Shown one piece after another: positions 2,988 through 31,598 of a DNA stretch of 33,901 bases. The translations under genes were made by a program, and so were the position numbers. Each line of letters starts with the position of its first letter. Within the stretch, counting starts at the first letter, position 1. The notes under the pieces were generated by a model. It ran no database searches, was not told the origin of the DNA, and saw nothing but the letters and a program-made list of their open reading frames with translations. The DNA is from Flavobacteriales bacterium (GTDB lineage: Bacteria > Bacteroidota > Bacteroidia > Flavobacteriales_D > Sanyastnellaceae), in NCBI GenBank assembly GCA_029245065.1, contig JAQWQB010000140.1, forward strand, positions 1-33,901, given 5' to 3'.

Positions 2988-5900
2988 TTACGGACAAGCC
3001 GTATCGAATACGCCGAGGAATACGAGCATGTCAGTTGAATTCACAAGTCCATCGTTGTTCATATCTGCGAGGCAGTTGTCATTGCAACCAAAATCTCCTA
3101 GGAACATCAATAGGTCAGTCACATTAATGAATCCATCAAAGTTAAAGTCTCCCAGACAGGAATACACTTCGTCTCCTTCTACCGATCCATTGCAATTGTT
3201 ATCAATGTCTTCACCAGTGCCTGGAGCGTTTGGATATACATCTCCGTTGGTATCATCACAATCGGTGTTATCTGCTACATAGCCTGCTGGCTGAGCGCAA
3301 TCTGATAGTGACGATGCTGCATCACCGAATCCATCATTGTCAGTATCTGCGTACCATGTCAACTGAATGCACTCAAAGGCGTCGATTGAGCCGTTGCAGT
3401 TGTTGTCAATCCCTTCACCCGTTCCAGGAGCGTTTGGATACACATCGCCATTTGTGTCATCGCAATCCGTATTGTCTGCCACATAGCCTGCTGGCTGAGC
3501 GCAATCTGATAGTGACGACGCCACATCTCCGAATCCGTCGTTATCGGTATCTGCGTACCACGTTAATTGGATGCACTCACTTGCGTCAATCGAACCGTTG
3601 CAATTGTTGTCAATTCCTTCAGCGGTTCCCGGGGCATTCGGATAAACATCTCCATTTGTGTCATCACAATCGGTGTCATCTGCCACATATCCCGCTGGTT
3701 GATCGCAGTCAGTTAAAGATGAAGCTGCATCTCCAAACCCATCGCTATCGGTATCTGCGTACCACATTAATGGAAGGCATTCCGTAGCATCAATTGAGCC
3801 GTTGCAGTTGTTGTCTACCCCTTCGGCTGTTCCTGGAGCATTCGGATAAACGTCATCACGCGTATCATCGCAATCGGTGTTGTCTGAAATGTACCCTGCT
3901 GGTTGAATACAAGCGCTGATACTTACGGCATCGTTCCCGAAACCATCGGTATCTGAATCCTCGTACCATGTTACTGGTGTACACGTCTGTTCAAGGATTT
4001 GCGTGTATTGAGATGAGCAGTACGAAATGGTTTGATCACTTACGACACAAGCCGTGTTGGTGAAATCAACGAGTGCTTCACCGATAAAAATATCGTCTAC
4101 ATACCACCCTTCAGCGGCAACGAAGTTATCAGAAGCCAGGCGCCAACGAATTGAAATGGTCTGTCCTGTGAATGAACTCAGGTCAACAATCGTTTGAATG
4201 AATCCGCCACTGCCTCCAGACCAAGCGTTTTGACCGCTCAGTGCACTTGCAGGGTTCACATTCAAGGTAGAATTGTATCCGTTTTGCGTAATCAATGCTT
4301 CTGCGTCCACCCATGTTGTTCCGTCAGTAGATGTTTCAAGTACACCTCCATCCCAGTTCGCTTCGGTATTGTAGAAATGCCAGAAGCTCAAGAAAGTTGA
4401 AGCTGTAATGTTCGTTACGTTGGGCAACACCAAGTACTGGTCACTCTCCTGTCCTGGATCTGATGCGAACCATGAATTTGACGGACTATTTGCTCTCGTA
4501 GTGCTTACGCTCCAATCAAAACCAGGGATGTTGTTTGTTACGGTATATCCAGCAACTCCTGATTCAAGGTTGTCTTGAAATTCAATGATAGAGAAAGGTG
4601 TCGCCGGGGCAGAAACCTCATAAGTACATTGAATCGTAGCTCCGTCTGGTAAGTCACCTAGGTCGAAGGTCAAGTCATTTCCCACTGCGGTAACCGTGCA
4701 AGAAGCTGATCCTGGAACATAATCTACATCCGAAGGAACAAGATCTGTCACTACTACATTCGTTACCAAACCACCCGTGTTGTTAAAAATGTCTAACGTC
4801 ACGGTCATGGTACCGTTTGCTTCGATGGTATCGCTGCTTGTTTTCGAGATGCCAACAGCGCAGTCTCCACTCACATCGAATGATTCAACACTGTCATTTA
4901 CATCACTAGAAGAGCCTTGATCGGCATTCACACCGAGACCTCTTCGGGCAAAAGCTTCCCAAATCAAGCATTTGTTGACACCCCCATTTAGGAGTTCATC
5001 TGCCAAAAGGATTGCATCTCTACCATCCACAAATCCGGGAGAGCACGGTTGCAATTTCAACCCTTCAACAACCAGTTCAAGTGCGATGTTATTTCCGCCT
5101 GTTCCATTGTACAAATCGGGATCGTATCCATATTCGTCAATCAGTAACCAGGTCATATCCCACAACATAGTGCACCATACTGACCCCACACCGTGCGGAA
5201 TACTTACGGAGTTGATGTCTTGATACGTGAATGGGTTAACACTCATGTCTGTTGAGTAAGGAAAAGGTCTAATTCCAGGGCCGTTGATACCAGCACCGAT
5301 GGAATAGTTTCCGATTCCGCGTGCTTCCGCACCAAAATCTGCTGCGTCCATGGTCATGATCAATCCGAAGTAATCACTCCAACCTTCACCCATTTGCTCG
5401 TTGTTGAAGAGGCAACCTACGTTGTCAGCTCCGGCAGTAAGACGGGTTGAAATACCGTGTCCGTATTCGTGTGTAATAACGCCGTTGTCTAGGTCGCTAT
5501 CTCTGTTGACTGATGCCAACAGTGAAATCGTTCCACTGATTGTTCCAGCGGCAATGGCTGCCTTAATGGTATTACCATCGGCTTGTGAAATCATCACCGA
5601 AGGAATCGTCAAGCCTGGATCTACTCCACCCATTCCGAAAGGTGCATCACCAGTGTTTTGAGCTACAATAACACCAATGGCTCCTTCGTTTTCCGCGTTC
5701 AATACTTTGTCTGTGAAGTTACAGTTACCGCGGTCTATCAGTACGATTTTTCCGGCGTAACCCGTGCCTACTAACGCACTGCATGCCTCTGTTGGGTTGG
5801 CCGTACCGTCGTCAGCAACAATTAAGTCTCCTGTCCACGTTCCCACTTGCGGACCAAAAGCAGCGACCACTCCGTTGTAACCTGTTCCATCAACTGTAAT

Positions 5901-7148
5901 TGACGGTGCAGCGGCAATATCCCACTCAAACATTTGCATTCGTGGCTGTTGGCCATCTGGAGGCGTTCCAAAGTTGGCATTGTTCAAGCCAGAACCATCT
6001 TGTGCGTCTGCAATAACTTCATCGTTTCCGAGACCACCATTTCCGTAGTTGTTTACCTGGAAGTTTCCACTTTGTTCGTCGAAACCGTAGTTGTACATCA
6101 CATCGTGGATGAGGTTATTCCAGTAAAACAAGTTGGTAATTGCAGCGGCCTGGTAATTTACAGGCTCTTGTGTTAAGTCCAATGGGAAGTCGAAATCCAA
6201 GGTTGCTCCACCATCTGGTGAGAACCCTGGCACGTTGTCGTTGTCTCTATCTTCACTTGCCCAAACGTTGTTACCTCTGGTGATGGTGTATTCTGCACCC
6301 GAAGCACCATCCGTATCGTGCCATCCAAAAGGAGATGCTGATAGGTTGTTATTCCAAGGCGATGCTTGTAACGTTCTTCCCCCGTTGTATGGAGACTCAA
6401 ACGGCTCAGCATAAACGTTGTAGCTATTGGCCAACAAAGGGGCTGCTGGTGTGAGCATAGGATTTCTCCCAGCGCTTACGTGTTCTACGCAGTGGGTGGT
6501 GTGATCGTGTGTTTCGTTATCAAATTCACACGTGCTGATCCAATTGTCTTTTTCCAACACGGTTCCATTGGCGGCATCTACTCTAATTTGCCACCAGTTC
6601 ACGTTGTCATTCGCTCTGATTACTAATTCCCACGCTAGTCTAACTTCACTTTCATTGACTTTCACGTACACCAAGTTGAACGGAATGTCTTCAGAAGAAA
6701 TACCCGACTTGCTGAGCATTCCTTGCTGGTCCTGTCCTGAAGCTTGCTGTAGCATCTCCATATCTGAGATGGTAAGTTTCAGATGACTCGCGGCGAACTG
6801 CAAGGCTTGTTCAACGGTGAGCTGAGGCTGACCGCCAGCTACCATTCTTTCGATACCATGTAGGAATCGGTCGTTGATATGTACCACTTTCCCATCAGGA
6901 AGAGCAATCACATTTAAGATCGCATTGTGAACACGAATACCGTCAACACGCTGTTGAATGTAGTGAACAGAATGGCCTCGTCGTTTATTGACTACTTCGC
7001 GGAGGTGCAAAGCGCCAGCAAGTTCACGTTGTTTGAACTGCTCTTTTTCAATAAGTTGTTGTTGCAATTGATCCCAAGAAGTTTGGGCGAAGGATGGCAC
7101 CGACATTAGCATCACGGCCAATGTGATTAAAGTTAGTATATGTCGCAT
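2988..7148 (-). CDS. Secreted M36 (fungalysin) zinc metalloprotease with PA domain, MopE-like repeats and dockerin-like C-terminus
   Basis: A 1386-residue exported zinc endopeptidase. It has a signal peptide (residues 1-21, cleavage after SFA), then a fungalysin-type propeptide (about 35-200). The M36 catalytic domain carries H560-E-Y-G-H564, with E588 (GEGWSDY) as third zinc ligand. A protease-associated (PA) domain is inserted ahead of the active site (about 425-530). Downstream are a DUF11-like domain (about 762-846), a jelly-roll/MAM-like domain (about 855-1025), four 68-residue Cys/Asp-rich MopE-type repeats (from W1061) and two dockerin-like calcium loops (DFNFDGFINVTD, DMNNDGLVNSTD) at the end. 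It probably digests extracellular protein. I see no classic type IX secretion C-terminal domain; the dockerin-like end sits in its place. The gene stands alone and ends at a bidirectional terminator. Catalytic assignment is firm; the adhesive or anchoring role of the tail is inferred. Confidence 0.93.
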   Translation of the reverse strand: MRHILTLITLAVMLMSVPSFAQTSWDQLQQQLIEKEQFKQRELAGALHLREVVNKRRGHSVHYIQQRVDGIRVHNAILNVIALPDGKVVHINDRFLHGIERMVAGGQPQLTVEQALQFAASHLKLTISDMEMLQQASGQDQQGMLSKSGISSEDIPFNLVYVKVNESEVRLAWELVIRANDNVNWWQIRVDAANGTVLEKDNWISTCEFDNETHDHTTHCVEHVSAGRNPMLTPAAPLLANSYNVYAEPFESPYNGGRTLQASPWNNNLSASPFGWHDTDGASGAEYTITRGNNVWASEDRDNDNVPGFSPDGGATLDFDFPLDLTQEPVNYQAAAITNLFYWNNLIHDVMYNYGFDEQSGNFQVNNYGNGGLGNDEVIADAQDGSGLNNANFGTPPDGQQPRMQMFEWDIAAAPSITVDGTGYNGVVAAFGPQVGTWTGDLIVADDGTANPTEACSALVGTGYAGKIVLIDRGNCNFTDKVLNAENEGAIGVIVAQNTGDAPFGMGGVDPGLTIPSVMISQADGNTIKAAIAAGTISGTISLLASVNRDSDLDNGVITHEYGHGISTRLTAGADNVGCLFNNEQMGEGWSDYFGLIMTMDAADFGAEARGIGNYSIGAGINGPGIRPFPYSTDMSVNPFTYQDINSVSIPHGVGSVWCTMLWDMTWLLIDEYGYDPDLYNGTGGNNIALELVVEGLKLQPCSPGFVDGRDAILLADELLNGGVNKCLIWEAFARRGLGVNADQGSSSDVNDSVESFDVSGDCAVGISKTSSDTIEANGTMTVTLDIFNNTGGLVTNVVVTDLVPSDVDYVPGSASCTVTAVGNDLTFDLGDLPDGATIQCTYEVSAPATPFSIIEFQDNLESGVAGYTVTNNIPGFDWSVSTTRANSPSNSWFASDPGQESDQYLVLPNVTNITASTFLSFWHFYNTEANWDGGVLETSTDGTTWVDAEALITQNGYNSTLNVNPASALSGQNAWSGGSGGFIQTIVDLSSFTGQTISIRWRLASDNFVAAEGWYVDDIFIGEALVDFTNTACVVSDQTISYCSSQYTQILEQTCTPVTWYEDSDTDGFGNDAVSISACIQPAGYISDNTDCDDTRDDVYPNAPGTAEGVDNNCNGSIDATECLPLMWYADTDSDGFGDAASSLTDCDQPAGYVADDTDCDDTNGDVYPNAPGTAEGIDNNCNGSIDASECIQLTWYADTDNDGFGDVASSLSDCAQPAGYVADNTDCDDTNGDVYPNAPGTGEGIDNNCNGSIDAFECIQLTWYADTDNDGFGDAASSLSDCAQPAGYVADNTDCDDTNGDVYPNAPGTGEDIDNNCNGSVEGDEVYSCLGDFNFDGFINVTDLLMFLGDFGCNDNCLADMNNDGLVNSTDMLVFLGVFDTACP
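3153..3968 (-). repeat. Four tandem 204-bp coding repeats (MopE-like motif)
   Basis: Inside the M36 protease gene, units of exactly 68 codons repeat four times, each beginning WYxDxDxDGFG and containing AGYxxDxTDCDDT, VYPNAPGT and DNNCNGS. The unit ends fall near 3765, 3561, 3357 and 3153. For example CTGAGCGCAA recurs at 3291 and 3495, 204 bases apart. The Asp/Cys pattern matches the MopE-type putative metal-binding motif, likely calcium-stabilised. Near-identity of the two C-terminal units at DNA level suggests recent duplication or gene conversion. Confidence 0.9.
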
Positions 7149-12345: not shown

Positions 12346-14109
12346 TTAGTGCTCTTCTTCTCCTGCTTTGAGTGGAGTCGTTTGAGGCACGAAGTCTTCG
12401 TCGTAATTCGGGTTTGAGTAGTCATATGCCCAACGGTGAACTACTGGCAACTCTCCTGGCCAGTTTCCGTGAATTCTTTCCACTGGAGTAGTCCACTCGA
12501 GTGTATTCGATTTCCATGGGTTCTGTACGGCTTCTTGTCCTCTGAAGATGCTGTAGAAGAAGTTGAATAGGAACAACAACTGCGCTGCACCTCCAATGAT
12601 TGCGAATGTCGAAATGATTGGGTTCAAATCCATCACCCAGTCAAGGAATGGGAAGTTTGAATAGTCATAGTATCTACGTGGTGCTCCTGCCATTCCAACG
12701 AAGTGCATCGGGAAGAATACTCCGTATCCACAAACGATTGTAAGCCAGAAGTGAGCGTAACCAAGTTTCGTACTCATCATACGTCCGAACATCTTTGGGA
12801 ACCAGTGGTAAATACCACCAAGCATTCCGAAGATCGCAGACATTCCCATTACAATGTGGAAGTGAGCTACTACGAAGTACGTATCGTGAACGTTCACATC
12901 CAATGCTGAATCGGCAAGGATAATTCCTGTGAGACCTCCCGTTACGAACGTTGATACCAATCCTACAGAGAATAGCATCGCTGGTGTGAACTTGATGTTC
13001 CCTTTCCAAAGTGTTGTAATGTAGTTGAAGGCTTTTACCGCTGATGGAATGGCAATCAACAATGTTGTGAATACGAATACAGAACCTAAGAATGGATCCA
13101 TACCAGTAACGAACATGTGGTGACCCCATACGATGAATGAAAGGAATCCGATCGCGAGGATAGATCCGATCATGGCACGGTAACCAAAGATTGGCTTTCT
13201 ACTGTTAGTCGAAATAATTTCTGATGAAATACCTAGTGCTGGTAGAAGTACGATGTATACCTCAGGGTGACCTAGGAACCAGAAAAGGTGTTGGTACAAG
13301 ATTGGTGAACCACCTGTTACTGGTAGTGCCTCTCCTGCAATGTGAATTTCACTTAGGTAGAATGCTGTTCCTGCTGTTCTATCCATCAATAGCAATACAA
13401 CGGCAGACACCAATACTGGGAATGAAAGTACCCCAAGAATTGCTGTTACCAAGAATGCCCAAATGGTAAGTGGAAGACGTGTCATTTTCATTCCCTTCGC
13501 ACGAAGGTTGATGATTGTTACTACGTAGTTCAATCCTCCAAGAAGTGAAGAAACAACGAACAACACCATTGAAAGAAGCCACATAGTCATCCCTGTTCCT
13601 GAACCAGGCATTGCCTGAGGAAGAGCCGATAGCGGCGGATAAACCGTCCAACCACCAGATGCAGCACCGCCTTCTACGAAGAGTGAAGCAAGCATGATGA
13701 AACTAGATAGTAGGAAGAACCAGTATGACAGCATGTTCAAGAAACCTGATGCCATGTCTCGTGCTCCAATCTGAAGTGGAATCAATAAGTTTGAAAAGGT
13801 TCCAGACAATCCTCCTGTTAGTACAAAGAAGACCATGATGGTACCGTGAATAGTTACTAGAGCTAGGTATGCGTTTCTATCCAATACCCCGTCTGGCGCC
13901 CATTTTCCAAGAAGCGTTTCAAGGATTCCGAACGATTCACCTGGCCAACCCAGTTGAAGACGGAAAAGAATAGAAAGCATTACAGCTACAATACCCATCA
14001 CGATTGCCGTGATTAGGAACTGCTTCGAGATCATCTTGTGATCCATTGAGAAGACGTACTTCGAAATGAAACTCTCCTCGTGGTGATGTGCTTGTGCGTG
14101 ATCAGCCAT
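12346..14109 (-). CDS. ctaD: Cytochrome c oxidase subunit I (haem-copper oxidase, A1 type)
   Basis: This is the 587-aa catalytic subunit, which reduces oxygen to water at the haem a3-CuB site in the cytoplasmic membrane and pumps protons. Ligands seen: H88 (TIHGT) and H418 for haem a, H416 for haem a3, and H281, H330 and H331 for CuB. GHPEVY supplies the cross-linked Tyr285 and the Glu283 that marks the A1 subfamily with a D-channel end point. About twelve hydrophobic helices are evident. The N-terminal tail (AQAHHHEESF) is short and His-rich. It is the last gene of the act-cta operon, 32 bases after ctaC, followed by a strong terminator. Subunit III is not in the window and may lie elsewhere. 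Confidence 0.97.
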   Translation of the reverse strand: MADHAQAHHHEESFISKYVFSMDHKMISKQFLITAIVMGIVAVMLSILFRLQLGWPGESFGILETLLGKWAPDGVLDRNAYLALVTIHGTIMVFFVLTGGLSGTFSNLLIPLQIGARDMASGFLNMLSYWFFLLSSFIMLASLFVEGGAASGGWTVYPPLSALPQAMPGSGTGMTMWLLSMVLFVVSSLLGGLNYVVTIINLRAKGMKMTRLPLTIWAFLVTAILGVLSFPVLVSAVVLLLMDRTAGTAFYLSEIHIAGEALPVTGGSPILYQHLFWFLGHPEVYIVLLPALGISSEIISTNSRKPIFGYRAMIGSILAIGFLSFIVWGHHMFVTGMDPFLGSVFVFTTLLIAIPSAVKAFNYITTLWKGNIKFTPAMLFSVGLVSTFVTGGLTGIILADSALDVNVHDTYFVVAHFHIVMGMSAIFGMLGGIYHWFPKMFGRMMSTKLGYAHFWLTIVCGYGVFFPMHFVGMAGAPRRYYDYSNFPFLDWVMDLNPIISTFAIIGGAAQLLFLFNFFYSIFRGQEAVQNPWKSNTLEWTTPVERIHGNWPGELPVVHRWAYDYSNPNYDEDFVPQTTPLKAGEEEH

Positions 14110-14141: not shown

Positions 14142-15569
14142 TTAATCGATGGTTGCTGTTTGATCTCCAGCGTCTGCTGGTTCAGCAACGTTATCATCAG
14201 CAGGACTTACATCTTCTGATTCGTTGTTCTCTTTTGACTCATCAACATAGAAAGTCTTCTGTTGTTCAAGCCAAGTTTTGTATTGCTCTTCTGATTGCAC
14301 AACTACCTTCATTTGCATATTGAAGTGAGCCGCTCCGCATACCTTATTACAAAGCAATAGGTAATCAAATTCTTCGTTATCAGTGATCATTCGCATGCTA
14401 TCAGTTGTGATAGTAGGCGTCATCTTGAATCGTGTTGGTACTCCTGGTACACAGTTCATTTGTGCACGGAAGTGAGGCATGTAAGCCGAGTGAATTACAT
14501 CTCTTGATCGGAAAATGAATTCTACTTCTTGTCCAACCGGAAGGTGTAGTTCACGAACCACTTGGTCATCCAAACCAGCTTCCCACTCCATGACGTCACC
14601 AATGGTGTTGTTGTCAAGACCTAGGATACGTTGAAGTTGAAGTTCCAGACGGTAAATCTTTTCTCTTTTCGCTTCAATAGCTGCTTCTGTCAAAACCGTA
14701 GCCTTGTCAGATTCCATCATTTCTTCGATTTCAGCAATACGGTTCATGTTCACGTCTTTCCATGCGTCGTTGCCATGATGGTCATCTCCTTCTGCATGTT
14801 CGTGATCGCCATGATCATGCCCGTGATGGTCAGCTTCGTGAAGTTGGTGTTCCAATTCTTCCTTTTCAGCTGCCAACAAGCCACGCTCGTAAGCCAATTC
14901 CATTTTCAACTTGTCAACTTGCCCTTCGATTTCAGCTGTTACTTCTTCAATCCCATCATCTGTTACAATTCCCAATGGGTTTGTTGGCGTGATGAGGTTG
15001 TAAGAAGACAAACCGAATTCGCTATCTGTTCCAGCGTACCGAGCTGTCCAGTCAAATTGCTTTGAATAGATTTCTACACGTAGCGCTCCATCCTCTACTT
15101 CTCCAGTCATGGCATTCCATGTCTGCAAACCGTAGATGATTACAATGGCAAGCACCAATGAAGGAACTACTGTCCAAACCAACTCGAGTCGGTTATCATG
15201 TGGGAAGAACTTCGCTTTCCTATCCTTCTTGTAGTAGTACTTCGCAGAGAAGTAGAACAACAGTGTGTTTACTGCGAAGAATACAATGGTAATGATGATC
15301 ATGTTGAAACTCATCAACGTATCAACACCAACACCGTGTTCAGAAGCAGACACTGGAAGGTAATCTCCATATTCAATAAAGAGATAAATCACTCCTGCGT
15401 AGAACAACACCATGAATACAAGCCAAAGCATTGCGTTCATTTTGTTGTCTGCAAATGAGATTTCTTCTTCTCTCGTTTTGCGGAGCTTAGCTGTTAAATC
15501 GTACACGCGGCCTAGTTGCAACAATGCTGCAATACCAACTGCGATGACTAAAATGATAAGAATCTTCAT
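14142..15569 (-). CDS. ctaC: Cytochrome c oxidase subunit II with His-rich coiled-coil insertion
   Basis: This 475-aa subunit takes electrons at its CuA site and passes them to subunit I. CuA ligands seen: H360 (VIHSAYMPHF) and C407, C411, H415, M418 in CNKVCGAAHFNM. The N-terminal helices (about 3-20, 46-66, 88-108, 130-150) follow the Bacteroidota form. The start is the ATG at 15569; the frame begins only six bases earlier at a TTG. Odd feature: between QFDWTARYAG (171-180) and the cupredoxin strand ELHLPVG (about 340-346) lies roughly 130-150 residues, much more than usual. It is Glu/Lys/Leu-rich and coiled-coil-like on both sides of a His/Asp run (about 241-266, with at least ten His). 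The C-terminus adds an acidic tail. No CxxCH haem motif, so it is not a caa3-type fusion. Confidence 0.93.
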   Translation of the reverse strand: MKILIILVIAVGIAALLQLGRVYDLTAKLRKTREEEISFADNKMNAMLWLVFMVLFYAGVIYLFIEYGDYLPVSASEHGVGVDTLMSFNMIIITIVFFAVNTLLFYFSAKYYYKKDRKAKFFPHDNRLELVWTVVPSLVLAIVIIYGLQTWNAMTGEVEDGALRVEIYSKQFDWTARYAGTDSEFGLSSYNLITPTNPLGIVTDDGIEEVTAEIEGQVDKLKMELAYERGLLAAEKEELEHQLHEADHHGHDHGDHEHAEGDDHHGNDAWKDVNMNRIAEIEEMMESDKATVLTEAAIEAKREKIYRLELQLQRILGLDNNTIGDVMEWEAGLDDQVVRELHLPVGQEVEFIFRSRDVIHSAYMPHFRAQMNCVPGVPTRFKMTPTITTDSMRMITDNEEFDYLLLCNKVCGAAHFNMQMKVVVQSEEQYKTWLEQQKTFYVDESKENNESEDVSPADDNVAEPADAGDQTATID

Positions 15570-15590: not shown

Positions 15591-16856
15591 TTAAATGTGG
15601 AAATCCTTACTCTCTTGCAAGAATGGATGATTCTTAGGTACAAGTGGTGCTTTTGACAGCGCTCTGAATACCGAAAATATGAATAGACCGAGGAACATAA
15701 TGAACATACCAACCTCTAATAAACCGAAATGGTTGTGATCGAACATGGTTCCAGGAATAACTAGCAGATATGTGTCCACGAAGTGCCCAACAAAAATCAA
15801 CAGTCCAGTTGGAATGATGAAATATGGGTTTCGTTTTGCATCACGCGAGATCATCACGTAGAATGGAATCGCGAAATTGATGAAGAACATCAAAATGAAT
15901 GGCGTTTTGTATTCAGTAAAGAATCGCTGAGTAAAGTACGTTACTTCTTCAGGAATATCTGAGTACCAGATCAACATGAATTGACTAAACCACAGGTACG
16001 CCCATAGCATTGAAATGGCAAACATCCATTTTGCTAGATCGTGTACGTGAGACTGTGTTAAGTCTTGGAAATAACCTTTCGTTCTGAGGTAAAGGATAGA
16101 TACCAGCGCAAAGATCATTGCTCCTACCCACATTCCAGAGAAGAGGTACCAACCGAATAGCGTAGAGAACCAGTGGGTGTCAATAGACATAATCCAATCC
16201 CAAGCTAAGGTTGAAGAGAACACGGCAAAGAACACCAAGAATAGTGCACTTCGTCTGTGTACTTTAAAGTGTCTTTCAATACTTGCTTCTTTGTCTTCTT
16301 CCAGTGACCATTTTCTGAAAAGACGAGCAAAAATCAAGAATACAGCCAAGTAAACAAATGTTCTCCCCCAGTAGAATAATGGGCTGAAGTATGCTGACTT
16401 GTTTGCAATAATTTCATCGTAGTTGGTATTGAGCACAGCTCCAGTTTCCGTAGCCTCTGCACAGTGTGCATGTCCGTCTGCCTCAATCACATATTCGCAG
16501 TACAACGTTGAGTCCATCCAGTGGTACAGGTGGTGTACGTGTGCTTGTCCTGCAATCAAGACAATCAATATCACACCCAGACCGATTGGTAAGTAACCAA
16601 CGAACATGGCTTCGAACATACGTTTCACGTAAGCAGACCAACCTACCTCTGCGGCATACTGCAGTGCATAGAAGAATAGCGCACCCAATGCAATGGCAGT
16701 AAAAAAGAAGCCATTCACGAGCAGGTTTGCCCAAAATCGTTGATTGAGGTGGGTATCACCTCCTGATGTAAACAGCCCGACGAGTAATCCGACGATTCCA
16801 ATCACCATTAAGGCAATTGATACTGTTTTAGCTTTTCCTTCGAACTTGAAATCCAT
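15591..16856 (-). CDS. actF: Alternative complex III subunit ActF (quinol-oxidising membrane subunit)
   Basis: A 421-aa polytopic membrane protein (about ten helices) matching the second NrfD/PsrC-like subunit of alternative complex III. Typical segments are VSIALMVIGIVGLLVGLF near the start, the long acidic/His loop with cysteines (HVHHLYHWMDSTLYCEYV), LVFFAVFSSTLAWDWIMSID in the middle and IPTGLLIFVGHFVDTYLLVIPG towards the end. In known complexes ActF is homologous to ActC and flanks it in the membrane; its proton-channel or quinone role is less certain. It lies 33 bases after actE and 21 bases before ctaC, linking the quinol oxidoreductase to the oxidase in one transcript. Confidence 0.93.
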   Translation of the reverse strand: MDFKFEGKAKTVSIALMVIGIVGLLVGLFTSGGDTHLNQRFWANLLVNGFFFTAIALGALFFYALQYAAEVGWSAYVKRMFEAMFVGYLPIGLGVILIVLIAGQAHVHHLYHWMDSTLYCEYVIEADGHAHCAEATETGAVLNTNYDEIIANKSAYFSPLFYWGRTFVYLAVFLIFARLFRKWSLEEDKEASIERHFKVHRRSALFLVFFAVFSSTLAWDWIMSIDTHWFSTLFGWYLFSGMWVGAMIFALVSILYLRTKGYFQDLTQSHVHDLAKWMFAISMLWAYLWFSQFMLIWYSDIPEEVTYFTQRFFTEYKTPFILMFFINFAIPFYVMISRDAKRNPYFIIPTGLLIFVGHFVDTYLLVIPGTMFDHNHFGLLEVGMFIMFLGLFIFSVFRALSKAPLVPKNHPFLQESKDFHI

Positions 16857-16889
16857 GGTCGCGTTCTTCGTAAAGTGTGTTTCGTTCTA

Positions 16890-17594
16890 TTATCCTTGAG
16901 TAGTGTCATCAGCATCTGGCTCAGCTGCATCAGTTGCTGCATCTGCCTTCGGCTCCATCACATTCCCATTTTCATCGAATTCTGGCATTGTTCCGCCATT
17001 CTGCAATACTTGCACGTATTGAATCACTTGCCAACGTTCTTTTTGAGAAAGTTGAGAAGCATGTGATCCCATCAATCCTTTTCCGTACTGAATTGAGTGG
17101 TACATGTTTCCTTCTGGCAGGTCTTTCAATTTCTCACTGTAAGAAGGGATTCCTTCGATGTGACCATTCTTCGAAATGGTTCCATTTCCTTTTCCTTCTT
17201 CACCATGGCAGTGGATGCACATGATTTCGTAGATCTCTTGACCTTCTTCAATGTTTGCCTGTGTTGTTGGCAACGGGCTTGTCAGTCCAGCTCCAGCTGC
17301 CTCATAACCTTCCGTTGTGTTTGGGTATGGGTAAGGCATTCCAAATGCCATTTGGTCTCCCATGTAGGCAATTGAACCTTGAGCTGGCTTTCTTGCCGAC
17401 ATGCGTGAATTCAACGAATCAACTTGGCTTTCACCAAAATGATACGGATCCATGCCGTAGTCAACATAAGCTTCAATAGCCGGTGAGCGGTACATGTCAG
17501 GCATGTACTCTAATCCAGGACTATTTTCGTCGCTGATGCACGAACCCAATAGGGCCGCCACACAGAGAAATAAGAATGTATTTTTAAGCAACAT
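16890..17594 (-). CDS. actE: Alternative complex III subunit ActE (monohaem cytochrome c lipoprotein)
   Basis: A 234-aa lipoprotein with signal LFLCVAALLGSC (lipid-modified Cys at 19). Its class-I cytochrome c domain has one haem site, CIHCH (about residues 125-129), and a candidate axial Met in GLMGSH. Conserved upstream text (YMPDMYRSPAIEAYVDYG and AYMGDQMAFGMPYPYPNTTEGYEAAG) is typical of ActE rather than of free cytochromes. The C-terminus is acidic and Ala-rich (DAATDAAEPDADDTTQG). It accepts electrons from ActA and delivers them towards the oxidase's CuA on the periplasmic side. It follows actD by 10 bases. Confidence 0.94.
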   Translation of the reverse strand: MLLKNTFLFLCVAALLGSCISDENSPGLEYMPDMYRSPAIEAYVDYGMDPYHFGESQVDSLNSRMSARKPAQGSIAYMGDQMAFGMPYPYPNTTEGYEAAGAGLTSPLPTTQANIEEGQEIYEIMCIHCHGEEGKGNGTISKNGHIEGIPSYSEKLKDLPEGNMYHSIQYGKGLMGSHASQLSQKERWQVIQYVQVLQNGGTMPEFDENGNVMEPKADAATDAAEPDADDTTQG

Positions 17595-17604
17595 AGCGTT
17601 GATC

Positions 17605-18141
17605 TTACTCGTAATCTTTAATGCTTAGTTCAACAAGGGGTGTGTCTTTCAACATCCCTTCAATTTCGTCCGCAGAATTACTGTGGTTCTCATCTGTTGT
17701 AATTTCCATTACGAACATATGGTCAGTTGTTCTAGGGTCAGGGTTGGTAGCGGGCATTCCTGGCAACGTTCCATTTCTTAGGAAGTAGGTAATTGCCATT
17801 CCGTGTGCGCCACACAGTACAGAAAACTCAAACGTTACTGGAATGAAAGCTGGCAAGTTCTCAATAAGAGAGAAACTTGGCTTACCTCCAATGTTCATTG
17901 GCCAGTCGTGGATCATGAAGTACCACATACCTAACAGTGCTAAGCATGTTCCTCCGGTTGCATACATGAAGGCAGCGATTGCCAAACGAGTTCGTTTTAC
18001 TCCGATGATTGGATCCAATCCGTGAAGTGGGAACGGTGAGTACACCTCCTTCACTTTCAATCCTTTCGCAACGAGTGTTTCTGCAGCGCGCATTAACACA
18101 TCGTCATCATCGTACATCGCATGAAAGACTTTTTTGCTCAT
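17605..18141 (-). CDS. actD: Alternative complex III subunit ActD (DUF3341)
   Basis: A 178-aa membrane subunit of the DUF3341 family. It has a cytoplasmic ferredoxin-like N-terminal part (KKVFHAMYDDDDVLMRAAETLVAKGLKVKEVYSPFP), the HGLDPIIGVKRTRL motif, and two transmembrane helices (about 62-82 and 97-118), with a short acidic C-terminal region containing FVMEITTD. It carries no cofactor and has a structural role in the complex. Spacing to actC and actE (10 bases each) shows tight operon packing. Confidence 0.94.
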   Translation of the reverse strand: MSKKVFHAMYDDDDVLMRAAETLVAKGLKVKEVYSPFPLHGLDPIIGVKRTRLAIAAFMYATGGTCLALLGMWYFMIHDWPMNIGGKPSFSLIENLPAFIPVTFEFSVLCGAHGMAITYFLRNGTLPGMPATNPDPRTTDHMFVMEITTDENHSNSADEIEGMLKDTPLVELSIKDYE

Positions 18142-18151
18142 CTTCTACTGC

Positions 18152-19537
18152 TTAGTGATTGTCTGTATTATGTAATTTCTTGTAATTCTCTCCTGAAGAC
18201 TTCAAAATAGTCTTCAACTCATTCAGTGCCAATACTGGGAAGAACCTAGCAAATAGCAAGAAGAGTGTTCCGAAGATTCCGATTGTTCCAACGAAGATTC
18301 CAATGTCAATTGGAGTTGCGTGGAATTCACCCCATGATGAAGGATCGTAATCTCTGTGGATAGATGTTACGATAATCACGTAACGCTCGAACCACATACC
18401 AATGTTTACCACGATTGACAACACAAATGTGAAAGCCAATGACGTTCTAAGTTTCTTGAACCAATATAGCTGAGGCGAAATCACGTTGCAGGTCATCATG
18501 ATCCAGTACGACCAGGCATACGGTCCGGAGAATCTATTGATGAAGGCATATGATTCATACTCAACTCCTGAGTACCAGCTAATGAAAAGCTCTGTTAAGT
18601 AAGCCACACCTACGATAGAACCCGTAACAATGATTACGATGTTCATGTACTCGATGTGCTTCGTATGGATGTACGCCTCCAGCTTCATTGCTTTACGCAT
18701 GATGAGAAGCAAGGTTTGTACCATGGCGAATCCTGAGAATACCGCTCCAGATACGAAGTATGGAGGGAAGATGGTGGTGTGCCATCCTGGAATTACAGAG
18801 GTTGCGAAGTCCATTGATACAATCGAGTGAACCGAGAATACAAGTGGAGTAGCGATACCTGCTAATACAAGCGACACTTCTTCAAAACGCGTCCAGTTCT
18901 TTGCTCTACCTGACCAACCGAAACTCAAGATTCCGTAGATTTTCTTAGGCAGTGGTTTCACCATTCTATCTCTGATGGTTGCGAAATCAGGAATCAATCC
19001 AATGTACCAGAATACCAGTGACACCGAGAAATAAGTCGAGATCGCGAATACATCCCATAGGAGTGGCGAGTTAAAGTTTACCCATAGTGAACCGAATTGG
19101 TTTGGCAATGGGAATACCCAGTAACCGACCCATAAACGCCCCATGTGAATACCGGGGAATATGGCGGCCATGATTACGGCGAAGATGGTCATCGCCTCGG
19201 CAGAACGGTTAATCGCCATACGCCATTTCTGACGGAATAGGAGTAGTACTGCGGAGATCAGTGTACCGGCGTGTCCGATACCAACCCACCATACGAAGTT
19301 CGTGATATCCCACGCCCAACCTACAGTTTTGTTCAATCCCCAAACTCCAATACCTGTTCCAATTAGGTACATGATACAGCCTACGCCGTAAAGAGCGACC
19401 AAACCGGTCAAAGTCACAAGGATTTTCCACGTTCGTGGAGCTGATCCTTCAATAGGGCCTACTACGTCGTTTGTGATGTCTTGGTAAGACTTATCACCGA
19501 AAATGAGGGGTTCCCTTATAGCTGCTTCTCTTTGCAT
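18152..19537 (-). CDS. actC: Alternative complex III subunit ActC (NrfD/PsrC-like quinol site)
   Basis: A 461-aa membrane protein of about ten helices in the NrfD/PsrC fold, which holds the menaquinol oxidation site near the periplasmic face next to ActB. It begins MQREAAIREPLIFGDKSYQDI, the normal ActC opening. Further family text includes GIGHAGTLISAVLLLFRQKWR, FPGIHMGRLWVGYW, FSVHSIVSMDFATSVIPGWH and WFERYVIIV. Start choice: the open frame extends 30 bases upstream only to a TTG inside actB, whereas the ATG at 19537 lies 13 bases after the actB stop and gives the family-like N-terminus. Confidence 0.95.
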   Translation of the reverse strand: MQREAAIREPLIFGDKSYQDITNDVVGPIEGSAPRTWKILVTLTGLVALYGVGCIMYLIGTGIGVWGLNKTVGWAWDITNFVWWVGIGHAGTLISAVLLLFRQKWRMAINRSAEAMTIFAVIMAAIFPGIHMGRLWVGYWVFPLPNQFGSLWVNFNSPLLWDVFAISTYFSVSLVFWYIGLIPDFATIRDRMVKPLPKKIYGILSFGWSGRAKNWTRFEEVSLVLAGIATPLVFSVHSIVSMDFATSVIPGWHTTIFPPYFVSGAVFSGFAMVQTLLLIMRKAMKLEAYIHTKHIEYMNIVIIVTGSIVGVAYLTELFISWYSGVEYESYAFINRFSGPYAWSYWIMMTCNVISPQLYWFKKLRTSLAFTFVLSIVVNIGMWFERYVIIVTSIHRDYDPSSWGEFHATPIDIGIFVGTIGIFGTLFLLFARFFPVLALNELKTILKSSGENYKKLHNTDNH

Positions 19538-19550
19538 GGATAGCGGTCTT

Positions 19551-22500
19551 TTATGCTTCCTCTTCAATGTTACGAACCTTCGTCATGTAGAAGATATTTG
19601 GCTTCACACCAACTTCTTCCAATGCGTGGTACGCACGATTATTTTCAGAAGTCTCACGGACTTCAGATTTCTTGTCATTCAAGTCTCCAAACTTGATTGC
19701 TCCAACAGAGCAAGCTTCTGCACATGCAGTCACTACATCTCCATCTGCAACTGGCGTGCTGTTCTTCTTCGCCTCAAGCTTTCCAGCCTGAATACGTTGA
19801 ACACACATGCTGCACTTCTCCATCACCCCACGTGCACGAACTGTAACATCAGGGTTCAGTACCATACGCGTTAGCATATCTTGAGAAGGGTTCACGTTCT
19901 TGAACTTGTCATAGCCCATGTAGTTGAACCAGTTGAAACGACGCACTTTGTAAGGACAGTTGTTCGCACAATAACGTGTTCCAATACAACGGTTGTAGGT
20001 CATTTGGTTCAGACCTTCATTGCTATGTGTTGTTGCAGCTACCGGACAAACTGTTTCACACGGTGCGTGGTTACAGTGCTGACACATCATTGGCATGTGA
20101 ACTGTCTGAGGATTATCTCCAGGACGTTCCATTCTGCCGTAGCTATCAATCACACCTACTCCTTCTTCTTCTCCTCTTTCTAGACTGTAGTCAGAAGAGT
20201 AGAAACGGTCAATACGCAACCAGTGCATATCACGGTGACGGTGAACTTCGTCTTTACCTACCACAGGAACGTTGTTCTCAATATGGCAAGCTGTAACACA
20301 AGCACCACACCCTAGGCATGAGCTCAAATCAACTGTCATTCCCCAGCGGTGACCAACACCCTCTACTGGGTGCTCATGCCACATGTCGAATTCACTGATT
20401 CCAACTTTATCGCTTGAATCAATTTTTCCATCGCCATTTACATCGCGGTGAACATTCAAAGCGTGTTTTTTATTCCAAGATGCTTCTCCTTTCGCCTTGC
20501 TCTTTTCAGCAAGGTAAGCACCAATTGTTGTCTCTTTAACCACAGAATCACGTCCCATGTACGTGCTGTGCATTTGAGTTGAAGCGAGGTTGTATTCTCC
20601 TCCTTCTACTTGCTCAATTGCTACATCTGTGTTGTTGTATACAGGGAAACCATTCTTCATGGTCACGAATGGGAATACATTGGCACCAACTGGCTTCATG
20701 TTTCCGTTTTCGTCCTTCACGTGTTCTCCGTTCTCTTTTGTTTCGAAAGCGGCACGTCCAATTTTTTCGTTTCCTGCACCACGACCATATCCTAAAGCGA
20801 TACCAATGGTACCTGGCTTTTGACCTGGCTGAGGGAATACAGGCAATTCAACGGTTGAACCATTTGCTGTTACACGAACAACAGACGCTGGGTCCCTTTG
20901 TCCGAGCTTCAAGCTCATTCCCATTGCTTCCATGTCTGCGAATGACATGGTCACATAGTTGTCCCACGTCACCTTCGTTACCGGGTCAGGCAACTCTTGG
21001 CACCAAGGGTTAGCAATGTGGCTTCCATCTCCAATACCAGTCTTCTGGTAAAGGAATACTTGCCAATTGCCTCCATTTTCTTTCTTCACATTTGAAACGG
21101 CGTCCGCAACATTCATGCTAGCAACAGCAGCAGGTGCTTCTTCAGCAGCCGTATCAACAGCTTCAACGGCCGGTGCAGCAGCTGCTGCCTGAACCATCAT
21201 ACCATTGTGAACAGCTTTGTTCCAATCTTGGTCTGTGTACATGCCTGCAGCTCCATAAGCTGGGTTGTACGTTTGACGAAGGAAAGTATAGTAATCCATA
21301 TCCATACCAGCCCACTTCAAGAGCGACTCTTGTGCGGCACGTGTATTGAATAGCGGAGTAATCGTTGGTTGAACTAGATCTACACGTCCAGCAGTTAAGC
21401 TGAGGTCGTTCCAAGATTCTAGCCAGTGGTTATCTGGACAGATAACGCTGCATTTGCTTGCTGTTTCATCAGCAAGACCATTCATAGCCACAGACATCTT
21501 CACTTTCGCAAGACCTTCTGTAAACTCTGATGATGATGCCCAAGAGTAACCTGGGTTCGCTCCGTATACTACCAACGCATCTACTTGACCACCCTTCATG
21601 TCGCGAACGAGGTCAGCAAATGCTTTGTCGTTTCCTTGGAACATGTTAATTGGAGTAGCCGTATCTATCGTAACGCCGTAGTTACCAAGCTCATTGTTGA
21701 TTGCGTTAACAATACGCTGAACATCCGGATCATTGCTTCCTGCAACAACCAATGACGCTCCTTTATTAGCCTTCAACGCGTTCACCGCATTGTTGAGGGC
21801 CATTTCAGCAACACCTTCTACACTTGCATTCCCTCCAGTCAATCCGGCTAGAATTGCCGCAGCAACTTTACCTTCTTGGTCTGGTTTGATTTGAACACGT
21901 GTATCAGCGTTGGTACCTGTCAATGACATTTGACCTTCGAACTGGAAGTGACGAGACATCCACTCTCCTTCTGGCTTACGACGCATTGCGTAATCTGGAG
22001 CGTAAAGGTTTGAAGTCAACCAGTTTGCCAAGAAATCAGCTCCAATGCTCACCACCACTTTCGCGTTGTCGAACTTGTATGTTGGAATGATTGCCTGACC
22101 CATGGTCATTCTATTCGCTTCGCGCATTCCGCTGTACGAAATAGCATCGTACTGAACGTGAGAAGCGTTGTATTTCGCCTTGAACACGTCGATTGCGCGC
22201 TGTGTACTAGGAGAAACAACGGTATTTGAAAGAAGTACTACTCTTCTAGCTGAAGATAGTCCGTCCATCACTGCCTTGTCTGCATCACTCCAAGAAGCAG
22301 CAGATCCGCCCATCATTGGTCCTTGCAAACGTGCTGAATCATAAAGACCAAGCACAGAAGCATTGATACGCGCATTTAAGGCACCTTTTGCGATTCCATG
22401 ATTGCGGTTTCCTTTAATGAAGATTGGACGACCTTCTCTTGTTTTCACAAGGAGGCTTCCGTAATCATTACCGTCGTAGTAAGTACTTGCGTAGTAATTC

Positions 22501-22787
22501 GCAATTCCAGGAGTAATTTCTTCTGGCTTGTTTACGTATGGCACCGATTTGATCACAGGTGTCTCACATGCAGCAAGCGTAGCAGCCGTGATAGAGAACC
22601 CCATAAACTTGAGGAAGTCTCTACGACCCGTGCTTGTTTCATTAAGACGGTCATCACCGAGGAATTCATCTACGCTGGGTTGCCCAGGGAATTCTTCTTT
22701 AACGGCTTCCTGATACGCCTCTGTCTTCTCGAGTTCTTCGAGGTCGCTCCAGTATCGCTTTGTGTTACCCATTTGTCCTGACTTCAT
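19551..22787 (-). CDS. actB: Alternative complex III subunit ActB (molybdopterin-oxidoreductase-like plus Fe-S domain)
   Basis: A 1078-aa periplasmic subunit. A Tat-type signal ([10 protein letters not shown]... LAAC, about residues 54-74, with a possible lipobox) precedes a molybdopterin-oxidoreductase-like domain, which in known complexes has lost its cofactor. Its Fe-S domain starts near 815, with C824-L-G-C827-G-A-C830 and C834, then [26 protein letters not shown], and CSMCVQRI with [11 protein letters not shown]. These clusters move electrons from quinol towards the ActA haems. Oddities: an Ala/Pro/Glu-rich linker (about 535-565, [20 protein letters not shown]) and an EF-hand-like loop, D782[11 protein letters not shown]793. 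It starts three bases after actA. An alternative ATG at 22772 (MGNTKRYW) matches how many homologues begin and is equally possible. Confidence 0.95.
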
Positions 22788-22790
22788 ATA

Positions 22791-24182
22791 TTAATAGTGG
22801 CACTTAGAGCATTCCCATCCCCCAAGTTCCTTAACTGTCACCTTTTCGTCTTCGAGGTATTTACGCAGTTCCTCGTTTCCGCGCATGTCGTCTTTGAGAC
22901 GGTTATGAATTTCCTCGTAGTATCCGTTATCTGTAGTTGTTACACCAACTTCTGCCTTGTTGTGGCATTCGATACACCATCCCATTGTAAGAGTAGGCTT
23001 CGAAAGCTGGATCAAACCAGGATAATCATCTACGAGTGCATTGATTTCCTCCACTGGAGCAATTCGTCCGCCTTTGAATGTTTGCACATCTCCGTGGCAG
23101 TTCTGACATTGCAACCCAGCCACTTCAACGTGCTGAGAGTGATTGAAATATACGTGGTCTGGGAGGTTGTGCACCTTCACCCATTCGATTGGTTGTTCTT
23201 CGTAATCTTCGATGTACTGACCGTTTTCAGGATTGAAACCGATCGCAGCGTAGATCTTACCAAGCTCTTCACCACCCCAACGAGATCCATTCTTGATTCC
23301 TTTGTGGCAGTTCATACAAACATTCGTTGATGGAATACCTGCGTGTTTTGACTTGGAAGCTGAACTGTGGCAGTACTGACAATCTACTTCGTTCTCACAA
23401 ACGTGAATACTGTGGTAGAATTTGATTGGTTGTTCTGGGTAGTACCCTTCGTAAACGCCTACCTCCATAGCTCCTTTGTAGGCCATGGTGATGAAAACAG
23501 CAGTAATAAACAATCCTGCAACAGATACCCAGGCCAAATGCCTCCAAGCCCATGCCTTCGCAGACTCAAAGTAAGACATGCTTGGTAGCGGCTCCTTTCC
23601 TTCTGATTCCAATTTAGCGTTCTCCAAGCTCTTCTTCACAGAGCCAGCAGAAACCGCAATGATGACAAACAACACAAACAAGATCAAGAACCAGATGGCT
23701 GAAGAGCTGTCTGAGTCTTCTGTTTGCATTTCGTCTATCGTAAGACACTCATTCTCTGAAAGCACAGGCTCAGCCACATCTGGTGGGTTCTGCACATAGG
23801 CCATGATGTCTTTCACATCGGCAGCAGATACTGCCTGGGCAGTCATCCACCCATACGTCCCAACGTAACGCTCAACAAGAGACTTTACGTAAGGATCTCC
23901 TGTAGCCGCCGCACCTTGTGGATTTTGGATCCACTTCACCAACATTTCGTCAGAAGAATCCCAACGATCCTTGATTCCGGCAAGTCCAGGGGCCGCCAAT
24001 ACTTCAGCAGTCACTTTGTGACAAGAAGCGCAGTTCGCTTTGAAAAGCGACTCGCCATTTGCAATATCACCTTCGTCCCATATACCGGCGAATACTGGCG
24101 ATAGCAGGGCAAAGGATAGCATGAGGGTTAGCGCTCTTAATGCGCTTTGAAATTTCGTCATTCCTTTAGATGGTAGGTTCAT
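22791..24182 (-). CDS. actA: Alternative complex III subunit ActA (multihaem cytochrome c)
   Basis: This 463-aa periplasmic, membrane-anchored cytochrome relays electrons from ActB to ActE. It has a signal/anchor (LTLMLSFALLSPVFA), then a class-I-like domain with haem site C51-A-S-C-H and possible Met ligand in YGWMTAQ. A transmembrane helix (about 157-177, SAIWFLILFVLFVIIAVSAG) and a second (about 210-230) follow, then CQYCH, CMNCH, CQNCH and CIECH. CSKCHY forms the extreme C-terminus. That makes six CxxCH motifs, while the classic family description is a pentahaem protein. The start was set at the ATG at 24182. The frame extends to a GTG at 24245, but that lies upstream of the promoter box at 24231-24224. 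It is the first gene of the act-cta operon. Confidence 0.93.
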   Translation of the reverse strand: MNLPSKGMTKFQSALRALTLMLSFALLSPVFAGIWDEGDIANGESLFKANCASCHKVTAEVLAAPGLAGIKDRWDSSDEMLVKWIQNPQGAAATGDPYVKSLVERYVGTYGWMTAQAVSAADVKDIMAYVQNPPDVAEPVLSENECLTIDEMQTEDSDSSSAIWFLILFVLFVIIAVSAGSVKKSLENAKLESEGKEPLPSMSYFESAKAWAWRHLAWVSVAGLFITAVFITMAYKGAMEVGVYEGYYPEQPIKFYHSIHVCENEVDCQYCHSSASKSKHAGIPSTNVCMNCHKGIKNGSRWGGEELGKIYAAIGFNPENGQYIEDYEEQPIEWVKVHNLPDHVYFNHSQHVEVAGLQCQNCHGDVQTFKGGRIAPVEEINALVDDYPGLIQLSKPTLTMGWCIECHNKAEVGVTTTDNGYYEEIHNRLKDDMRGNEELRKYLEDEKVTVKELGGWECSKCHY

Positions 24183-24223
24183 CTCTATTCTTTGTTGGAT
24201 CAGAACGGACATATAATCGCGGG

Positions 24224-24231
24224 CAAATTTA
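24224..24231 (-). promoter_or_regulatory. Bacteroidota -7 promoter box for the act-cta operon
   Basis: The minus strand reads TAAATTTG, an exact TAnnTTTG match, ending 41 bases before the proposed actA ATG. No clear -33 TTG was found at normal spacing. Its location excludes the GTG at 24245 as the true start. Confidence 0.55.
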
Positions 24232-24284
24232 TGGGATTTTAACACTCAGAGCGGGGCTGGCTGACAAAATTGTGACACTCTTTC

Positions 24285-30017: not shown

Positions 30018-31598
30018 ATGAAGCGCCTTATTGCTTGTTTACTCGTTTTAATTTCAGTGGTTTCTTTTGGCCAGAAACAACACTATGCAGACTTCTATGA
30101 AGGAAGCAAAAAACGTTCTGAAGGCTTCTATGAGCGTGGCCTCGAACACGGACAATGGACCTGGTGGTTCGAAAACGGAGAAGTGAAAGAGACTTCTATT
30201 TATTATTTCGGTCAACTAGACGGCCCAACCCTCACTTACTACGACAATGGCCAACTGAAACAGGAGGGCTATTTTATCAAAGGTGTGCAAGACAGCATCA
30301 TGCGTTCTTTTTCCAGAGATAGCGTGCTATTAGAAGAAGGTAAATACCGGAACGGCCGGAAAGTGAGCGAATGGAATTATTGGTTCGAAAATGGAGATGT
30401 CATGCTCCAAGAAATTTACCTCGATTCACTGAAGGAAGTATTCTATTTCCGGGATGAAGAAAAAGAGCAATTAGTAGATGGAACAGGCATCTACTTCGAG
30501 CGGTACCCGAATGGAACCAAAAAATTCGAGACAACCTATCAAAACGGACGAAAAAACGGGAGTCATATTGCTTGGTATAGCGATGGAACGGTGAAGGAAG
30601 AAGGAACATTTGAAGCACACCGGAGAGCTGGTGTTTGGAAGGAATACTTTCGAGATGGGTCCATTGAACGTGAAGCGCAGTTTACCAATGGCGAGCTGAA
30701 CGGGACCTTCAAGCAATACTTCAGGGATGGCATCACCGATGTAGAAGGTACGTATGCCGACGGAAAGAAAAACGGAGATTGGACGTGGTATTTCAGAGAT
30801 GGACAGGTTGATATGCAAGGACCTTTTGAAGCAGACCTTCAGCAAGGAGCATGGACCTATTACTACGGCAATGGCAATGTCCATTATGCTGGGAATTACC
30901 AAAAAGGGGAAATGGACGGGGTTTGGAATTACTTCTATTTCACCAGTGAAAAATGGAAAACGGGAAGTTACAGCGCAGGTCTCAAACAAGGCACCTGGAA
31001 TTACTGGTTCGAAAATGGAAATGATTTGATGACGGGTACTTTTGTTGATGACTTGGAAAATGGTGAATGGACTAGCTGGTACGAAAACGGAAACACTAAG
31101 GACGTTGGAAACTACACTCGCGGGAAATTAGACGGCAATTGGAAAGGTTGGTATCCGAATGGGGTGAACAACTATGAAGGTGCGTGGAAAAATGATTTCC
31201 GGGTTGGCATTTGGTCATTCTGGTGGGAAAATGGAAAACCGCATGAAGTAGCTGAATATGACAACGAAGGTGTTCGCAACGGAAAGTGGGAATCGTACAA
31301 CCAAGCTGGGATTTTAGAACAGAAAGGAAACTACAAAGCAGGTATGCCAGACGGTAAATGGTCTTACTACTTCCCAAATGGCTCTATTCAACGAATGCAT
31401 AATTACAAGCTCGGACGAATGGACGGACTTTCTGTTACGTATGACCGCAGAGGAAGGAAACTTCAAGAAACGGAGTACAAAATGAACAGGAAACACGGTA
31501 AATTTGTTACCTACAACGATCGTACCGGTGAAATTGAGCAGCATTTGATTTTTGAAAACGGTAAGATGGTAAAGACCGTCAAGGGATTGATGGAGTAA
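30018..31598 (+). CDS. Secreted MORN_2-repeat (YwqK-like) protein
   Basis: A 526-aa exported protein. After a signal peptide (1-19, ending SFGQ) almost the whole length is about twenty repeats of roughly 23 residues. The core is a G-x-W-x-Y-F-x-D/N-G or W-F-E-N-G turn followed by x4-G-x-Y/F-x-x-G (for example GQWTWWFENGEV, GAWTYYYGNGNVHYAGNY, GTWNYWFENGN). This is the MORN_2 pattern found in proteins named YwqK-family antitoxins, although no toxin partner or toxin-antitoxin layout is visible here. The repeats stack as beta hairpins into an elongated scaffold. The C-terminus lacks a recognisable type IX sorting domain. The next gene starts 33 bases downstream on the same strand. Confidence 0.9.
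   Translation: MKRLIACLLVLISVVSFGQKQHYADFYEGSKKRSEGFYERGLEHGQWTWWFENGEVKETSIYYFGQLDGPTLTYYDNGQLKQEGYFIKGVQDSIMRSFSRDSVLLEEGKYRNGRKVSEWNYWFENGDVMLQEIYLDSLKEVFYFRDEEKEQLVDGTGIYFERYPNGTKKFETTYQNGRKNGSHIAWYSDGTVKEEGTFEAHRRAGVWKEYFRDGSIEREAQFTNGELNGTFKQYFRDGITDVEGTYADGKKNGDWTWYFRDGQVDMQGPFEADLQQGAWTYYYGNGNVHYAGNYQKGEMDGVWNYFYFTSEKWKTGSYSAGLKQGTWNYWFENGNDLMTGTFVDDLENGEWTSWYENGNTKDVGNYTRGKLDGNWKGWYPNGVNNYEGAWKNDFRVGIWSFWWENGKPHEVAEYDNEGVRNGKWESYNQAGILEQKGNYKAGMPDGKWSYYFPNGSIQRMHNYKLGRMDGLSVTYDRRGRKLQETEYKMNRKHGKFVTYNDRTGEIEQHLIFENGKMVKTVKGLME

Follow-up and report, generated by a model that had tools for sequence, protein, structure and literature searches.

Subunit II (CtaC) of the aa3 oxidase encoded in the window, by which we mean the whole 33,901-nucleotide stretch of Flavobacteriales DNA that was analyzed, carries an insertion of about 162 aa beside its CuA domain. 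The His codons at the tip of this insertion are under purifying selection, while the length of the loop and most of its residues vary. Binding of metal by the tip is likely because His is selectively kept, because His-rich tips are also found in other lineages, and because other proteins of the same genome bear the same motif. We hypothesize that the bound metal is copper, which then reaches CuA. A respiratory oxidase may thus carry its own metal-catching arm beside its copper center, in one uncultured flavobacterial family.

The ctaC gene and its surroundings

The following features place the gene in the window.

14142 to 15569, minus strand: ctaC, cytochrome c oxidase subunit II, 475 aa (Pfam COX2_TM and COX2 above cutoff)
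14490 to 14492, minus strand: CuA ligand H360, invariant in the alignment of 66 CtaC proteins
14316 to 14351, minus strand: CuA motif C407-N-K-V-C411-G-A-A-H415-F-N-M418, with C407, C411, H415, and M418 invariant
12346 to 14109, minus strand: ctaD, oxidase subunit I, the next gene downstream of ctaC (Pfam COX1, 465 bits)
15591 to 24245, minus strand: actA to actF, alternative complex III (ACIII), with Pfam cytochrome c, NrfD, ActD, Fer4, and molybdopterin domains; actF was assigned by position only

The ctaC gene is intact, the ATG at 15569 is most likely its true start, and the genome holds no other copy. The act genes lie directly upstream of ctaC and ctaD follows it, the arrangement of an ACIII-aa3 operon. 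The protein scored 50.6 bits with COX2_TM (cutoff, 22.8) and 24.0 bits with COX2 (cutoff, 22), and it reached 100 bits with the CoxB equivalog model TIGR02866, below the cutoff of 147.7. Despite this shortfall, there is no doubt that CtaC is subunit II, since its ligands, its fold, and its operon all agree. As the earlier note had claimed, the insertion is in frame and all CuA ligands are kept: the protein is read from one 475-aa frame, and H360, C407, C411, H415, and M418 are invariant in the 66 aligned CtaC proteins. The Glu of the CxExC motif is a CuA ligand via its backbone; in CtaC, the motif reads CNKVC, with Lys at the Glu position. When the model of CtaC was compared with Paracoccus subunit II using VIA-align, 209 residues were superimposed (Z, 17.3; rmsd, 2.5), and CtaC has the cupredoxin fold of solved subunit II by this measure.

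Several other features of the region were recorded. Two extra N-terminal helices are predicted in CtaC before the canonical transmembrane pair (residues 2 to 29 and 39 to 67; window 15369 to 15566, minus strand), and the CtaC homologues in the alignment share the same N-terminal beginning. CtaD starts with a small His cluster, MADHAQAHHHEE (window 14074 to 14109, minus strand). Farther away, the window encodes what is probably a secreted M36 fungalysin protease (2988 to 7148, minus strand) and a protein built of many MORN-variant repeats (30018 to 31598, plus strand). The protease has four repeats of the Cu-binding_MopE motif, and its C terminus weakly resembles a dockerin.

Anatomy and predicted structure of the insertion

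The insertion starts after QFDWTARYAG, at about residue 180, and ends before HLPVG (residue 341); it separates the aromatic electron-entry motif from the cupredoxin strand that follows. A phmmer comparison with Rhodobacter sphaeroides subunit II matched query residues 74 to 196 to chain residues 21 to 140 and query residues 343 to 438 to chain residues 175 to 258, so that 146 CtaC residues stand opposite 34 in the gap. An insertion had been noticed here before; its size, put at 130 to 150 residues, turned out to be slightly larger. Its parts are as follows.

14547 to 15032, minus strand: whole insertion, residues 180 to 341 (phmmer gap against R. sphaeroides subunit II; alignments)
14892 to 14960, minus strand: predicted hairpin helix 1, residues 204 to 226 (AlphaFold, alignment; common to the His-poor sister clade)
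14826 to 14885, minus strand: predicted hairpin helix 2, residues 229 to 248 (AlphaFold, alignment; long form only)
14772 to 14849, minus strand: His/Asp/Gly-rich tip, residues 241 to 266, with ten His and no Cys or Met
14712 to 14774, minus strand: predicted hairpin helix 3, residues 266 to 286 (AlphaFold, alignment; long form only)
14622 to 14687, minus strand: predicted hairpin helix 4, residues 295 to 316 (AlphaFold, alignment; common to the His-poor sister clade)

Helices and tip together occupy residues 192 to 338 (14556 to 14996). All ten His fall within residues 241 to 265 (HQLHEADHHGHDHGDHEHAEGDDHH), in line with the run of at least ten noted earlier. AlphaFold2, given 66 homologues, returned a model of CtaC with a mean pLDDT of 86.7; most helix blocks were above 90 and the helices at about 96, and the tip loop was of low confidence (about 54 over residues 251 to 260). 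The same four helices appeared when the insert was predicted alone. The insertion is thus predicted to form two antiparallel helix pairs with a disordered His loop at the far tip; helical flanks of the His run had been foreseen, although as two stretches rather than four.

We then compared the insert with known folds. Foldseek gave no match under an E value of 0.001 and VIA-align none at a Z value of at least 8, and a known fold was rejected for the insert, as only generic coiled coils were matched. The weak neighbors were tricellulin, Rad50, prefoldin, SMC, and the arm of seryl-tRNA synthetase. As long, antiparallel coiled coils, they favor an extended two-storey hairpin over a compact bundle. 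The missing match is not evidence of a new fold. Judging from helix length, the tip would sit at the end of a coiled coil of about 40 residues, or about 60 Å if straight, and in such a model a large distance would separate it from CuA, unless the arm were bent or acted on a neighboring molecule. According to the alignment, the insert emerges from the protein near the rim where the cytochrome docks, the location of this rim being taken from established knowledge of subunit II.

Distribution of the His-tipped insertion

The long form with a His tip was found in all 47 sampled proteins of one clade, from 10 sampled genera of the window's family. Each of the 47 inserts contained at least eight His, and none had lost the tip. 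The SH-aLRT value was 82 for this clade, 100 for its His-poor sister group, and 96 for both together. At the same site, CtaC of Flavobacteriaceae (Polaribacter), like that of several other families, has about 40 residues with about one His, and many families, together with the sister clade in the window's family, have a short hairpin of 96 to 113 residues with 0 to 5 His. The suggestion that the insertion is not ordinary for the group was therefore borne out by the alignment across Bacteroidota, in which most Flavobacteriales CtaC proteins have 40 to 125 residues and 0 to 5 His at this position. In the alignment, the long form corresponds to a short hairpin whose tip has received a second pair of helices together with the His loop. 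In subunit II, a single loop has expanded from about 40 to more than 200 residues into an appended, probably functional element.

Nearly all CtaC frames listed for a class-wide sample of 396 genomes were 327 to 446 aa long, and among the matches listed, a single genome (G319) had a long CtaC outside the window's family. Long, His-rich inserts at the same site were also present in L123 (family f3, 22 His) and L160 (family f24, 10 His). The long His-tipped insert is neither general for Bacteroidota nor unique to the window's genome. By parsimony, the origins of the His tips require three changes on the tree. In the AU test, a single clade including L160 was marginally rejected (P = 0.044), and the joining of L123 to the main clade was not rejected (P = 0.28); on these sequences, a separate origin is only marginally supported for the f24 tip and not supported for the f3 tip. 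Part of genus g47, in another family (L117 to L122), has a long, His-poor insert of 164 aa with 2 to 5 His. This insert was lengthened separately, and its few tip His (HTGAHGH) vary among species.

Selection on the His codons of the tip

The tip consists of 34% His, 24% Asp, and 18% Gly, with His mostly spaced at i+2 or i+3. It is nearly devoid of Met and has no Cys, a composition that would not suit Cu(I). Neither the tips nor the flanks of the 47 inserts contained Cys, and hence none had a CxxC zinc hook of the Rad50 type. Tip length ranged from 11 to 111 residues, and tandem DNA repeats, with units of 6 to 63 nt and often 15 nt, were detected in 23 of 49 inserts.

Over 22 independent pairs, the ratio of changed to synonymous codons was 0.24 for the CtaC core, 0.41 for the insert flanks, 0.24 for tip His, and 1.03 for other tip residues; the tip values rest on gapped alignments, and the gap-free comparison consists of two pairs only. 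The hairpin helices were more conserved than the tip. At tip His codons, the amino acid had changed in 8.7% of cases, and the ratio stayed between 0.22 and 0.47 over all runs; Ala, Glu, and Ser in the tip loop changed in 25 to 60%. With composition-blind alignment scores, we obtained 0.22 to 0.36 for His, 0.7 to 1.1 for Asp, 0.5 to 0.8 for Gly, and 1.9 to 6 for Ala, Glu, and Ser. A neutral simulation on the same tips gave 3.4 to 5.7 for His, 3.9 to 5.5 for Asp, and 2.1 to 2.7 for Gly. Since repeat units of different origin, if aligned, can inflate synonymous His matches, the eight pairs with no detected tandem repeats were run separately, with values of 0.47 for His, 0.50 for Gly, and 3.2 for Asp. 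Conservation is firmly supported only for His and, to a lesser degree, Gly, because Asp was near neutral in these pairs. Chance or a neutral repeat was rejected by this codon analysis as the origin of the His-richness: at least eight His in every one of the 47 inserts, together with selectively conserved His codons, is more than chance.

Metal-related proteins in the genomes

When the 3.19-Mb genome was searched with a single DNA pattern encoding H[DEG]H[DEG]H, 13 matches were obtained. Only three evident genes carry the motif in frame, namely, those for CtaC, a ZIP metal transporter, and a DUF4920 lipoprotein; it also occurs in frame in two more open stretches (L181 and L190), which were not gene-like. 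The lipoprotein (L193, 7446 to 8090, contig C55 of the same organism) has a His-rich head and tail with HDHDHDH and, from its sequence, is possibly a metal-binding envelope protein.

PCuAC is the usual second copper chaperone of CuA, besides Sco. No PCuAC domain (PF04314) was found in any of the 114 genomes of the window's family or in CtaC itself, and Sco was present in 109 of the 114. His-poor relatives lack PCuAC too, and its absence therefore does not explain the loop. First counts had suggested an extra Sco paralogue as a partner of the His tip, a candidate that we rejected. Four families whose CtaC is His-poor have Sco-B, at 50 to 55% identity; the His-poor sister clade lacks it, as does, it seems, the His-rich f3 genome. 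The distribution of Sco-B is therefore that of an ancestral gene lost in the sister clade and lends no support to a partnership. Two tandem Sco genes form a fused double-Sco frame of 411 to 424 codons in some genera and are separate in others (L149, 1417 to 2646; L146; genomes G043 and G107). An apparent in-frame TGA in Sco of G046 and G048 proved to be an ordinary stop, the match having overrun the gene end.

Possible functions of the insertion

Our best explanation, which we hold tentatively, is a loop that binds divalent metal and supplies copper next to CuA or buffers it there. An antiparallel coiled-coil hairpin would have grown from a loop near the cytochrome-docking face and would end in a flexible His/Asp/Gly loop, which most likely has many weak binding sites for Cu(II) and/or Zn(II). 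In the manner of zinc-transporter His-loops, this loop would catch periplasmic metal and raise its local concentration. Copper would be passed to the adjacent CuA during assembly, probably with Sco, and the loop would also buffer excess metal near the oxidase. Copper delivery is the hypothesis favored by the location of the insertion, and it is compatible with the missing PCuAC. A bolder and rather unlikely version is a built-in metallochaperone arm, in which a boom-borne His loop captures copper and loads its own CuA in cis, and which evolved more than once in bacteria lacking PCuAC. If true, copper in such bacteria could reach CuA by a simple route in cis, through a metal-binding arm that belongs to the target subunit. 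No description of a His-rich CtaC insertion was found in the literature searched.

It is also possible that the hairpin is a structural arm that docks a partner, whether an ACIII subunit, a second oxidase, or an accessory lipoprotein, with help from a metal-bridged contact of the His tip, as in a coiled-coil metal hook. The helices are confidently predicted (pLDDT of about 96) and better conserved than the tip, and the best, though weak, Foldseek matches are long antiparallel coiled coils, including Rad50. The COX2 insertion of ciliates recruits a Tim hexamer (PMC10060162), and ACIII and aa3 form a supercomplex in Flavobacterium johnsoniae (PMC8361435). However, the contacts of that supercomplex were reported to run via subunit III (PMC8361435), and a precise interface would hardly tolerate a tip of 11 to 111 residues. 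The insert has a net charge of about -26 without His, and ActE has a pI of 4.4 and a net charge of -6 over residues 91 to 200. Because both are acidic, the simple electrostatic tether to ActE, proposed in the earlier note, is disfavored; a metal-bridged or purely structural supercomplex contact of the hairpin is possible.

Zinc inhibits oxidases from the outer side, and the loop might sequester Zn or excess Cu away from the outer face of the oxidase with no loading of CuA. The His composition and codon evidence apply equally here, and the tip would suit Zn(II) as well as Cu(II), but there is no visible reason why this clade only would need such protection, and we consider the idea unlikely. 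Still more doubtful is a His/Asp cluster that buffers pumped protons or guides ActA's mobile cytochrome domain: the insertion lies beside the docking rim, as judged from the alignment and established subunit II knowledge, and His titrates near neutral pH, but the acidic partners speak against charge steering. The least credible account is neutral low-complexity expansion, in which a permissive hairpin tip picked up repeats by slippage and is His-rich only incidentally, since despite the tandem repeats and hypervariable length, His is under purifying selection even in the repeat-free pairs (0.47 versus 3.4 to 5.7 expected), the tip was lost in 0 of 47 members, and His-rich tips recur in other families.

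Comparison with known systems

CtaC shares with subunit II in general (CtaC/CoxB/COX2; PF02790, PF00116, TIGR02866) the transmembrane hairpin, the CuA cupredoxin domain with all ligands, and an operon with ctaD; it differs in the Lys of its CxExC motif and in scoring under the TIGR02866 cutoff. It is about 110 residues longer than R. sphaeroides subunit II, the extra length forming the His-tipped hairpin. The order of act genes, ctaC, and ctaD is common to the ACIII-aa3 systems of F. johnsoniae and other Flavobacteriaceae, whereas in the Flavobacteriaceae CtaC sampled, from Polaribacter, the insertion site holds no more than about 40 residues with a single His.

Extra sequence in subunit II is also known from COX2 of ciliates, where it recruits other proteins, and from CtaC of actinobacteria; we know of no His tip in either. 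VIA-align to mycobacterial and corynebacterial CtaC covered 222 to 245 residues, against about 205, with Z values of 15 to 17; no sequence similarity was seen in the insert.

The 63-residue loop of ZnT7, with 21 His, captures Zn, which it then delivers to the site of transport (PMC10932157). Like the CtaC tip, the His-loops of the zinc transporters ZnT7 and ZIP are long, variable in length, flexible, and located beside a metal site, but they belong to another fold and another compartment, and CtaC is an electron-transfer subunit. The likeness is only an analogy of mechanism, drawn from tip composition and selection on His. PCuAC frequently has a His/Met-rich tail (PMC9145763). It is a separate protein with Met in its tail and is missing from the genomes of the window's family, but it would have in common with the CtaC tip a flexible His-rich element tied to CuA assembly.
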